Origin: a virus
IMG/VR virus record: IMGVR_UViG_3300033148_001652
Span: 1 to 41,349 of that record
Length of the DNA: 41,349 nt
Strand: one strand, 5' to 3'
The notes beneath the pieces were generated by a model. The model was not told the DNA's origin. It made no database searches and worked only from the letters and a program-made list of their open reading frames with translations. Shown here piece by piece: positions 6,451 through 27,686 of this stretch (positions are counted from its first letter, which is position 1; the number at the start of each line of letters is the position of its first letter). The position numbers were made by a program, and so were the translations under genes.

Positions 6451-6798
6451 TTATAATTGTCTGTACATTATAAGCCTATAGTTATAACCTTCAATATCTA
6501 AACTCTTTCTATAATAGAATTCAATATATTCAGTATTAACTACCATTTTAAATACTTTGTTATCTGTATAAGTTGTATCATTAACTTTGATACACTTTAG
6601 AACTGATTTAGATAAATCAAATTCACTCATCATTGTTAAAGTAGAATCTTTATATATTATAGAACCACCGTATTCATCAGTATTTATAATATAATAAGTA
6701 CTATCTGTTCTTTCTTCTTTAATAGCGTAATCATATTTGTATTCTTGACTATATGATACAATCGGTATCAAAAATAGTATTATTAGTAATTTTTTCAT
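6451..6798 (-). CDS. Exported small protein with flavobacterial signal peptide
   Basis: 115 aa. The start was set at ATG 6796-6798 because it follows the shared leader (TAAACTTTACAACTATG); the frame is open further upstream but that part is leader. The N-terminus MKKLLIILFLIPIVSYSQ is a textbook Bacteroidota signal peptide with cleavage after SYS or SQ. The mature part is beta-rich (DSTYYIINTDEYGGSIIYKDSTLTM, VLKCIKVNDTTYTDNKVFKMVVNTEYIEFYY). Probably periplasmic or surface-exposed. The function is unknown; superinfection exclusion is only a guess. Confidence 0.8.
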   Translation of the reverse strand: MKKLLIILFLIPIVSYSQEYKYDYAIKEERTDSTYYIINTDEYGGSIIYKDSTLTMMSEFDLSKSVLKCIKVNDTTYTDNKVFKMVVNTEYIEFYYRKSLDIEGYNYRLIMYRQL

Positions 6799-7543: not shown

Positions 7544-7753
7544 TTAATTTAAATAAATAGGGTATGATGATATATGTAATAACGCATTAAAGTCACTATT
7601 TTCTCTTGTGTACTCTAATATATATTTTACGAATTCATCTAGGACACTACTTACAAAGTTTAAATCAACTCTATGTGTGTCCCCAAAGAACTCATAAAAT
7701 GCGTTAATAAATGATACCTTTTCTATTTTAGTTACTGTGTTAATTACTGCCAT
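7544..7753 (-). CDS. Small hypothetical protein
   Basis: 69 aa (MAVINTVTKIEKVSFINAFYEFFGDTHRVDLNFVSSVLDEFVKYILEYTRENSDFNALLH...), a helical soluble protein. ATG 7751-7753 is preceded by the shared leader variant (AAACTTTACAACATG), which fixes the start. Not recognised. Confidence 0.75.
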   Translation of the reverse strand: MAVINTVTKIEKVSFINAFYEFFGDTHRVDLNFVSSVLDEFVKYILEYTRENSDFNALLHISSYPIYLN

Positions 7754-11401: not shown

Positions 11402-11680
11402 TTAATTATTAGTTATTAAATGCTTATGTGCTTCTTTAGATATCATAAGTTCTATAATAGCATTTAATTTATCCGAACCAATAGTTAGTTCTTTATAATG
11501 TACATCTATAACTGCAACAACTGTATCTAATGTATCTTTCATATTACATTTGAGTTCATCTTTAATAACACTCATTGCTAATAATATTAAATTATCATTA
11601 ATACGATTTATTACTTTAGTTATTGTTTCTTTTGTTAATCGTTTACCATTATATTCGTATACTGTTAATTCTTTATTCAT
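11402..11680 (-). CDS. Hypothetical helical protein
   Basis: 92 aa (MNKELTVYEYNGKRLTKETITKVINRINDNLILLAMSVIKDELKCNMKDTLDTVVAVIDVHYKELTI...). Predominantly alpha-helical and soluble. The frame is open 19 codons further upstream, but ATG 11678-11680 directly follows the shared leader (TTAAACTTACAACTATG) and is taken as the start. Confidence 0.75.
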   Translation of the reverse strand: MNKELTVYEYNGKRLTKETITKVINRINDNLILLAMSVIKDELKCNMKDTLDTVVAVIDVHYKELTIGSDKLNAIIELMISKEAHKHLITNN

Positions 11681-12145: not shown

Positions 12146-12214
12146 AAGAGAGTATTGTATATAATACTACCAGTCGATCTGTAGGTAATATTCCGGTATG
12201 TACAATACTCTCTT
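12146..12214 (-). ncRNA. Structured intercistronic RNA element 5 (14-bp closing stem)
   Basis: Perfect 14-bp inverted repeat: AAGAGAGTATTGTA (12146-12159) with TACAATACTCTCTT (12201-12214). The 41-nt interior contains a second stem-loop, on the minus strand CTA-CAG-ATCGA-CTG-G-TAG. It begins 9 nt after the KH-gene stop (12224) and ends 43 nt before the start at 12102. Too large a loop and too weak a U-run for an ordinary terminator. Confidence 0.5.
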
Positions 12215-12223
12215 AATATTTAT

Positions 12224-12679
12224 TTATCTACTATATAGTTTATGCCATAGTTTACATTCTTTTATTTTAAGTTGAATGTTAACTTTAAATTGTTTATTTA
12301 AATATTCAGTTAAATGATTTATATCTTTACCACCTTTACCAATTAATATACCTGGTCTATTTGTAGTTATAATAATTACCATTCCAGTTTTATTACTTTC
12401 TACTTCGACATCAGTTATACTATATTGTACATTATAACATTCATTTGTTATAAAATACATATTTAATTCTCTTCTAACTAATTTAGTATCTTCTCTTTCT
12501 ATATCTTTCTTATATTGTAGTCTACCAGCAAAATAACTTAATGACATACCTAATCCTACACCTAATCCTTTTATAAATGGTATATCAGAGAAGAATGCTA
12601 TTATTGTATTAGATATTAAAGCTCCTGTAAAGAGTAATAGTATAACTATCAGTCCTTTATGTTTATTTATAGTTTTCAT
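12224..12679 (-). CDS. Membrane-anchored KH-domain RNA-binding protein
   Basis: 151 aa. Residues 9-30 (GLIVILLLFTGALISNTIIAFF) and 34-51 (PFIKGLGVGLGMSLSYFAG) are two membrane segments, followed by a charged linker (KKDIEREDTKLVRREL). Residues 85-142 match a type II KH domain as in ribosomal protein S3 or Era: VEVESNKTGMVIIITTNRPGILIGKGGKDINHLTEYLNKQFKVNIQLKIKE. The GxxG loop is IGKGGKD (113-119). The domain should bind single-stranded RNA (or DNA) at the inner membrane surface. The gene lies between structured elements 5 and 6 and carries the full shared leader. Fusion of a KH domain to membrane helices in a phage is not something I know to be described. Confidence 0.8.
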   Translation of the reverse strand: MKTINKHKGLIVILLLFTGALISNTIIAFFSDIPFIKGLGVGLGMSLSYFAGRLQYKKDIEREDTKLVRRELNMYFITNECYNVQYSITDVEVESNKTGMVIIITTNRPGILIGKGGKDINHLTEYLNKQFKVNIQLKIKECKLWHKLYSR

Positions 12680-12713
12680 AGTTGTAAAGTTTAAAGGTTA
12701 ATATTATTTATTC

Positions 12714-12835
12714 TAGTATTACAATTACCTAACTAGTTAGGCATCATATATAACCGAAGCTATACCGTTTCTATTTATTATTCTTCCTATTGTAGAACTT
12801 TAATGTTAATCTTTAGGTTTGTAATTATAATACTA
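12714..12835 (-). ncRNA. Structured intercistronic RNA element 6
   Basis: Closing helix of 14 bp with one C-A mismatch: TAGTATTA-c-AATTAC (12714-12728) with GTAATT-a-TAATACTA (12821-12835). Its far arm includes the TAG stop (12833-12835) of the next gene. Inside are the perfect palindrome CCTAACTAGTTAGG (12728-12741) and a TTCTA/TAGAA hairpin (12769-12797). Ends 34 nt before the KH gene start. Confidence 0.45.
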
Positions 12836-13185: not shown

Positions 13186-13288
13186 ATAATATAGTAGTAT
13201 CTGAGCATAAAATAGATTGCATGGATACATTTTGTAATTTTTAACTTATCTATTTATAAGTACTACATTAGGTAGTTTACTATATTAT
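13186..13288 (-). ncRNA. Structured unit B: four-way cloverleaf
   Basis: P1 is 11 bp (13186-13196 with 13278-13288). Hairpins follow almost without gaps: GTATC/GATAC (13197-13228), ACTTAT/ATAAGT with a 6-nt loop (13244-13261) and ACTAC/GTAGT (13262-13276). A 15-nt single strand separates the first two. On the minus strand the order imitates a tRNA, but there is no TTCRA loop and no 7-nt anticodon loop with a 5-bp stem. Confidence 0.45.
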
Positions 13289-13290
13289 TA

Positions 13291-13379
13291 ATTCTATTTA
13301 ACATTATATCTTCAAATACTTGGACAACTACGTGTATATTATTGTCCTTATAACCGAGTATTTTGCAGTTAAATAGAAT
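13291..13379 (-). ncRNA. Structured unit C: nested long hairpin
   Basis: Perfect 12-bp outer stem ATTCTATTTAAC (13291-13302) with 13368-13379. Inner stem AAATACTTGG (13314-13323) with CCGAGTATTT (13354-13363, one G-U). A further stem GGACAA (13322-13327) with TTGTCC (13342-13347) shares two bases with it. Confidence 0.45.
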
Positions 13380-13505
13380 ATAAATATTATATATTGTATT
13401 ATTTGTTATACTTATTGTATGTATATTGTTATATTATGTACGTTATTGTACATATATTCTAAGGGTAAATACCCTAAATTTGTACAAAAGGTCTATATAT
13501 ATTGG

Positions 13506-13599
13506 TAATATTATATATTATGTAAGGGTTTTACGGTAGTAAAATATGTCCGTAGGACTAGGTACACCAAGTGATACCCAAGTCCTTAGACAATATTAT
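13506..13599 (-). ncRNA. Structured unit D: two hairpins inside an A+T stem
   Basis: TTTTAC-GGTA-GTAAAA (13529-13544) is a perfect 6-bp hairpin. AGGACT (13554-13559) pairs with AGTCCT (13581-13586), and GGT-A-CAC / GTG-AT-ACC continues inside it with a CAA loop. TGTC (13547-13550) and GACA (13589-13592) extend the base. Flanking TAATATT (13506-13512) and AATATTA (13593-13599) can close the unit. Confidence 0.4.
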
Positions 13600-13600
13600 A

Positions 13601-26612: not shown

Positions 26613-27686
26613 ATGTTAGTAAGAGAAATGCATATTGGAATTGATATCGGACTACAAAAGATGAACTCCGAGAAACTAGAAGATTTTGGACCAGAAGAAA
26701 AAGATTGGGTTTTAAATGAAATTCAATTAAGACACATAAAAAATCGTTCTAGTAGAAAATCAAATCCAAAGAAAGATGGTTTACAAGATACTGTAAAAAG
26801 GTATGAAGATATTGAAGACCTAATTGAAACTGCATCTCTCCCTGTATATAAGAAGGATAGTGAGACAATGTTTGCATTATTACCACAAGACCATTTTATA
26901 TTACTAGATAACACTAGTGAAGTAATATATGATTGTAACGGTATAACAAAAACTGAAGGGACTACTACTAAGAAAATTAGTGTAGTCCCTTTTAAAGAAG
27001 ACCTTACAAAATTATATGAAGAATATAATTTAGCTTATGATGATGGTACAGGACTTGTTACAATATTCGATATGCAAGATTACGCATTTACTGAAAATGC
27101 AACAGTAGGTGGTGGATTAAAAGATAACGAAGAAAGGTTTTATATTGTAGCACATGTTAAAGAAATTGTAAATAGAATAGATGGATTAGAAGTTAGATGG
27201 GAAAACTATAATGGTAAATACTATCCTAATTCATTTATATTTGTAACTGATACACAAGGTGCTTTAAATATAACCGCTACTTTACAAGTAGGAAATGTTG
27301 AAGTATATAATTTTAGTGATTTAACTTTCACTACTTATTCAACTAATACGCCAGTATTAAAGAAATATCCTCATAGACTTGTTAAAACAGATGATTTAAG
27401 ACATTTAATGAATCATTCTTTTGGAACTACTAAATATAGTTCTCCTTTAACTACTAGGTCAAAGAAGATTTTGAACCTCTTCCACAACGAAAGGTTTATA
27501 TTTAATAGGCTACATGTTGAATATATTAGGAAACCTCGACTTATTTCGCTATCTTTAAATCAAAGTTGTAGTTTAAATGAAGCCTTACATGAGGAAATTG
27601 TAGACGAAGCAGTTCAACTGATAAAAGCTAGAATAAATGATGTAGGGTATCGTAATATAATAAATGAAAACTTGATTAAGGAATAA
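26613..27686 (+). CDS. Head-neck (ring-type) structural protein
   Basis: 357 aa. The start (MLVREMHIGIDIGLQKMNSEKLEDFGPEEKDWVLNEIQLRHIKNRSSRK) resembles a conserved crAss-like structural protein with an HIxIDxxLQKxxS...PEExDWxLNxxQ pattern. Middle part beta-rich (YYPNSFIFVTDTQGALNITATLQVG), C-terminus helical (HEEIVDEAVQLIKARINDVGYRNIINENLIKE). Likely one of the rings between portal and tail; the exact counterpart is uncertain. Confidence 0.75.
   Translation: MLVREMHIGIDIGLQKMNSEKLEDFGPEEKDWVLNEIQLRHIKNRSSRKSNPKKDGLQDTVKRYEDIEDLIETASLPVYKKDSETMFALLPQDHFILLDNTSEVIYDCNGITKTEGTTTKKISVVPFKEDLTKLYEEYNLAYDDGTGLVTIFDMQDYAFTENATVGGGLKDNEERFYIVAHVKEIVNRIDGLEVRWENYNGKYYPNSFIFVTDTQGALNITATLQVGNVEVYNFSDLTFTTYSTNTPVLKKYPHRLVKTDDLRHLMNHSFGTTKYSSPLTTRSKKILNLFHNERFIFNRLHVEYIRKPRLISLSLNQSCSLNEALHEEIVDEAVQLIKARINDVGYRNIINENLIKE

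Follow-up and report, generated by a model that had tools for sequence, protein, structure and literature searches.

A predicted membrane-anchored S3-type KH protein in a crAss-like phage and its stand-alone relatives in other phages

Introduction

What would a phage do with an RNA-binding domain that appears to be joined to a membrane helix? The question is raised by a small gene in a crAss-like phage genome, for which an earlier note had proposed two membrane helices, a C-terminal KH domain, and structured RNA partners on either side. We analyzed the 41-kb (41,349-nt) IMG/VR virus record that carries this gene, referred to here as the window.

Results

The KH gene and its genomic setting

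Positions 12224 to 12679 (minus strand) hold an intact open reading frame (ORF) of 151 amino acids, which is a real gene encoding the putative membrane-anchored S3-type KH protein. The window also encodes DNA polymerase A, an IHF/HU-type gene, an amidase, and a crAss-like terminase that matches 157 annotated phage records, many of them from crAss-like gut phages or phages of Flavobacterium and Cellulophaga. Based on these terminase relatives and on signal peptides of the type ...SYSQE, the host likely belongs to the Bacteroidota. No ribosomal genes were seen among the ORFs flanking the KH gene. Two contigs (L002 and L003) share 99.8% identity with the window and stop at its positions 13430 and 14228, close to a stretch (13250 to 13600) that is AT-rich and holds few ORFs. 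Thus, the left arm of the window is observed in one copy only.

The KH gene begins exactly at the motif AAACTTTACAACTATG, which is found before several other minus-strand genes of the arm. The start-site motif ACTTTACAACTATG (12677 to 12690, minus strand, at the KH gene) has eight matches in the window with up to two mismatches, versus 1.2 expected, and none of 100 shuffles reached eight. Seven of these sit right at the start codons of left-arm genes on the minus strand, namely, the exact copies at 6796, 7019, 7942, 10280, and 12677 and the copies with two mismatches at 11678 and 12100; the eighth, at 27279, is inexact and does not coincide with any listed start. ACTTTACAACTATG, which contains the -35-like hexamer TTTACA, is the true repeat of the left arm; it may act as a promoter or as an initiation signal for this set of genes. 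Because the motif sits at the upstream ATG, the hydrophobic N terminus would be translated and is very probably part of the product.

The C-terminal domain is a predicted S3-type KH domain

Residues 75 to 142 match Pfam KH_2 (PF07650) with an E value of 6.1e-14 and a score of 52 bits, where the cut-off is 22. Together with a leading helix, the predicted type II (S3-type) KH domain spans residues 61 to 143 (12251 to 12499, minus strand), and AlphaFold2, with 21 sequences, modeled residues 61 to 140 at a pLDDT of 93 to 98. The order of elements in this confidently predicted fold, alpha-beta-beta-alpha-alpha-beta, is that of type II, with the GxxG loop between the two central helices; the loop reads GKGG (residues 114 to 117; 12329 to 12340, minus strand). 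A C-terminal type II KH domain with an intact GxxG loop, as first proposed from the sequence, is thereby borne out, and the fold check by structure prediction came out in its favor as well: among the Foldseek matches listed against the PDB, 50 of 50 were S3/uS3 chains.

The domain had been described as S3/Era-type, and it is the S3 half of that label that stands, based on sequence, profile, and predicted fold. Sequence matches of the protein in the PDB are overwhelmingly S3, and its best NCBIfam matches are S3 models (4e-11, well under the models' own cut-offs), with no Era model among the NCBIfam matches. The full RpsC model scored 43 bits versus a curated cut-off of 114.5, and the KH_KhpA-B profile (KhpA/KhpB, Jag) scored 14.4 bits versus 32.1. 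Identity between the window KH domain and S3 is only about 30 to 35%, and the domain retains both the S3-specific RPG-(x2)-IGK signature and the Glu that follows the last strand. This Glu (E141) and W145 form a C-terminal E-x-x-x-W motif (12245 to 12259, minus strand). The protein stops 8 residues past the KH domain, and the S3 C-terminal domain is absent. It is basic (pI 9.6 for the whole protein and 9.2 for the KH part), and its KH domain would be expected to bind single-stranded nucleic acid.

Stand-alone S3-type KH proteins form a phage family

Searched directly, the window protein had no relative in IMG/VR or in 84,980 genomes, and in annotated phages it matched only S3 genes that belong to bacterial contigs. 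The neighboring DNA polymerase, used as bait in IMG/VR, gave no relatives either; KH_2 was absent from 15 + 44 records of terminase relatives, and PHROGs held no match to the window protein. S3 KH domains used as seeds yielded five phage proteins, and the family was widened by a degenerate RPGxxIGKGG pattern, a family profile, and then a subgroup profile to roughly 30 different proteins carried by about 35 contigs. Seven candidates (L124, L125, L131, L134, L142, L146, and L150) were chance matches to the pattern, L133 was a fragment of cellular S3, and a weak annotated-phage match (H105, MT835564.1) was a full-length S3. A closely related motif gave 96 stretches in cellular genomes, and all 80 of those examined were full-length S3 or chance.

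Relatives with a clear start are 79 to 185 residues long (a few start codons are uncertain). Their KH domain lies at or near the C-terminal end, with no S3 C-terminal domain and no ribosomal neighbors, and no consistent conserved neighbor of the KH gene was found across them. KH_2 matched 20 of the 21 members tested, and a 21-member profile best matched S3, with chain 7jil, S3 of Flavobacterium johnsoniae, at the top (E = 1.4e-14). In PHROGs, one member (L122) had a single weak match outside the KH domain. Some members are acidic (L122, pI 4.8).

A T4-type capsid gene occurs in 10 of 21 records, several of which are 200 to 410 kb long. The earlier note suggested looking for relatives in other crAss-like phages, and one was found, on a 94-kb record (that of L130) with a crAss-type terminase; the family profile matched nothing in the rest of the 37 terminase-relative records searched. 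The family spans unrelated large phages, T4-type jumbo and crAss-like. By eye, in the region 5501 to 6887 of L120, the KH gene runs across the 3' end of one ORF, which is P-loop (polynucleotide-kinase-like), and into the beginning of another, which is HAD-like. Also by eye, the crAss-type terminase at 12 to 2996 of L033 contains an insertion that keeps the frame and looks like an intein or a homing endonuclease.

In a tree with S3 domains, the window protein falls on a long branch in a phage-only clade of 25 (support 100/99), on an alignment of few columns (85). Four members (L122, L123, L143, and L144) lie outside this clade. Regarding an origin of the clade inside S3, holding all S3 rows together gave an AU p value of 0.355 on the same 85 columns. 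Because RPG and IGK were part of most search patterns, their invariance proves little. Outside the RPG..IGK patterns, E141 is invariant in the family alignments and W145 is invariant in the window's subgroup. L276, which was found via a C-terminal pattern that did not include GxxG, has RPE in place of RPG and keeps the loop as GMRG, so the loop persists in this relative. With its single C-terminal S3-type KH domain, its lack of the S3 C-terminal half, and its place in the phage-only clade, the window protein is, as judged from sequence, a member of this family.

The best viral fold matches (Foldseek, BFVD) were A0A8S5RY19 (Myoviridae sp. ctNQV2, 134 residues, E = 5e-6) and A0A8S5M7P8 (Siphoviridae sp. 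ctrgt10, 174 residues, E = 8e-5). Both are named 30S/40S ribosomal protein S3, and both probably belong to the stand-alone family, based on their models. Further small phage proteins in BFVD (G3MAM3, which is Bacillus phage G gp482, A0A516M068, and A0A127AWK0) gave weak KH-like fold matches (E = 0.003 to 0.05). Phage annotation may underestimate how common KH-like folds are. We found no description of phage S3-type KH proteins in the open-access literature, and the family is apparently undescribed.

The N terminus is predicted to be anchored in the membrane

Of the two N-terminal membrane helices first claimed, the first is well supported. Helix 1 (residues 9 to 30; 12590 to 12655, minus strand) is clearly membrane-like in its predicted hydropathy, with a Kyte-Doolittle mean of up to 2.42 over 19 residues; in this region, AlphaFold drew helices at residues 8 to 17 and 24 to 30 with modest pLDDT. 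Helix 2 (residues 33 to 52; 12524 to 12583, minus strand) is a probable transmembrane helix that runs on into a cytosolic helix. It is weaker, contains one Lys, and reaches at most 1.26 (residues 33 to 51), below the usual Kyte-Doolittle threshold of 1.6 for a membrane helix. AlphaFold drew a helix from residue 34 to 78, with an N-terminal pLDDT of about 60 to 66. The helix pair is flanked by K2/K6/K8 and R53/K57/K58, and these charges on either side, by the positive-inside rule, would put each end on the cytosolic side. A membrane-linked KH protein in a crAss-like phage, the central notion of the earlier note, is supported by the sequence through predicted helix 1.

Classical transmembrane helices were found in none of the relatives, where the highest hydropathy among profile-found members (1.37) lies inside the KH domain. 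Since the hairpin is unique to the window copy, the membrane-anchored architecture rests on one contig, and tethering is no demonstrated property of the family. A short N-terminal helix that is basic and amphipathic is present in several relatives; their N-terminal amphipathicity is above that of shuffles at a combined z of 3.6, a value that ignores kinship among partly related sequences. In L250, this segment is modeled as a separate helix (residues 2 to 13). Such N termini could associate with membranes or contact RNA. Basic extensions of phage S21 have been proposed to serve RNA binding (PMC7162821), and by analogy the amphipathic helices may do so rather than bind membranes.

Discussion

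The preferred reading and its rivals

We tentatively favor, at a little short of even likelihood, a membrane-anchored, cytosol-facing S3-type KH protein that binds RNA as an accessory takeover or post-transcriptional factor. An N-terminal helical hairpin would lie in the inner membrane and present the single KH domain to the host cytosol. The N-terminal half of ribosomal protein S3 would be the ancient source of the family, and short single-stranded RNA would most likely be bound via the canonical GxxG cleft. The protein would keep RNA of the phage or the host at the membrane, whether free or bound to ribosomes. The gene, its predicted fold, the family, and one strong sequence-predicted membrane helix are the observations from which we infer topology, RNA binding, timing, and target of the window protein. 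Points in favor are the KH_2 match, the S3-like model, the GxxG loop, the basic pI, the start motif, the clade, and the amphipathic helices of relatives; the hairpin seen on one contig, the weak second helix, the lack of a conserved neighbor, the acidic members, and the possibility that the amphipathic helices contact RNA instead of membranes count against it. A wider version seems doubtful to us: that a captured S3 KH domain acts in unrelated large phages as a membrane-associated RNA tether, by an amphipathic helix in many and a transmembrane hairpin here, and during takeover localizes phage mRNA or host ribosomes to the inner membrane.

A rather unlikely alternative is that the protein mimics S3, its KH domain replacing host S3 on 16S rRNA or the 30S head, or competing with it there, to tune translation or assembly, while the anchor brings ribosomes to the membrane. 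Its best matches are all S3 rather than other KH_2 families, it keeps the RPG-(x2)-IGK signature and the Glu following the last strand, and phage-encoded ribosomal proteins offer a precedent, including a bL9 that consists only of the N-terminal RNA-binding domain (PMC6375957). However, the protein lacks the first residues of S3 as well as its C-terminal domain, the identity to S3 is low and the phage clade sits on a long branch, and RPG was itself included in the search patterns and reads RPE in L276.

We consider it improbable that the protein serves superinfection exclusion or anti-defense at the membrane, with the KH domain as a sensor or protein-binding module rather than an RNA effector. 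Such a role would suit a small accessory membrane gene that is a singleton, lies in a variable arm, and is missing from nearly all of the other crAss-like records searched, but the GxxG loop is kept, the window has no PADLOC match, and no neighbor supports it.

It is very improbable that the protein partners structured intercistronic RNAs on either side of its gene and carries them to the membrane. The gene had been said to lie between two such elements, and one of them is real: an intercistronic hairpin with 18-nt arms just downstream of the KH stop codon (12146 to 12214, minus strand) is a strong outlier (z of about -6, 0 of 200 shuffles), and it did not score as an intrinsic terminator. The second, at 12714 to 12835, is not convincing as a structured RNA (z of -1.3 to -2.3, and about -0.7 in a sliding scan). 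Nor is the arm full of similar elements, as had been proposed: windows with z below -3 make up 4.6% of the left arm versus 4.2% of the right, and Rfam gave no match. Stretches at window positions 7621 to 7710 and 26941 to 27030 are strongly structured (z of -6.6 and -7.2), comparable to the hairpin next to the KH gene. Hairpins near the relatives' KH genes are inconsistent in place and strength, and the relatives' neighborhoods are unrelated; moreover, KH domains bind single strands, not long stems. With the second element failing and the arm not enriched, we dropped the pairing of the KH protein with flanking RNAs.

A chance ORF, a contaminating host S3 fragment, or an assembly chimera is hardly credible, for although the architecture is a singleton and the near-identical contigs L002 and L003 end 0.75 to 1.5 kb before the gene, the domain scores highly, the start motif is common to neighboring phage genes, E141/W145 are common to other phages, and the protein falls in the phage-only clade.

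The preferred reading, a membrane-anchored S3-type KH protein, points to a testable phage family of predicted RNA-binding proteins that consist of one half of a ribosomal protein found universally. It also raises the question of whether RNA or ribosomes are brought to the host membrane by phages, to which we found no published answer for crAss-like phages in the open-access literature.

Comparison with known systems

The closest known counterpart is the N-terminal KH domain of uS3 (RpsC), which gives the best sequence and structure matches and shares the fold, the RPG-x-x-IGK-x-G signature, and the conserved Glu. The window protein differs from uS3 in having a predicted membrane anchor, in lacking the first S3 residues and the C-terminal domain, and in lying outside a ribosomal operon. 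It is unlike the Era GTPase, as only membrane helices precede its KH domain and there is no GTPase or Era match.

Phages are known to encode translation components. Phage ribosomal proteins include bL9, which keeps the N-terminal RNA-binding domain only (PMC6375957), and huge phages carry S1, S4, S21, and L7/L12 (PMC7162821); the terms uS3 and KH domain are absent from the main texts of both papers. The window protein resembles this group (bS21, bL12, bL9, S1, S4, and others) as a phage-borne copy of a translation part; some members of the group are likewise reduced to an RNA-binding domain.

Membrane-tethered KH proteins are known in bacteria from RNase Y (PMC5289998). RNase Y has a type I KH domain, a coiled coil, and a catalytic HD domain, whereas the window protein has a predicted type II KH domain and no HD domain. 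What the two would share is the arrangement of an N-terminal membrane anchor, predicted here for helix 1, followed by a cytosolic KH domain.
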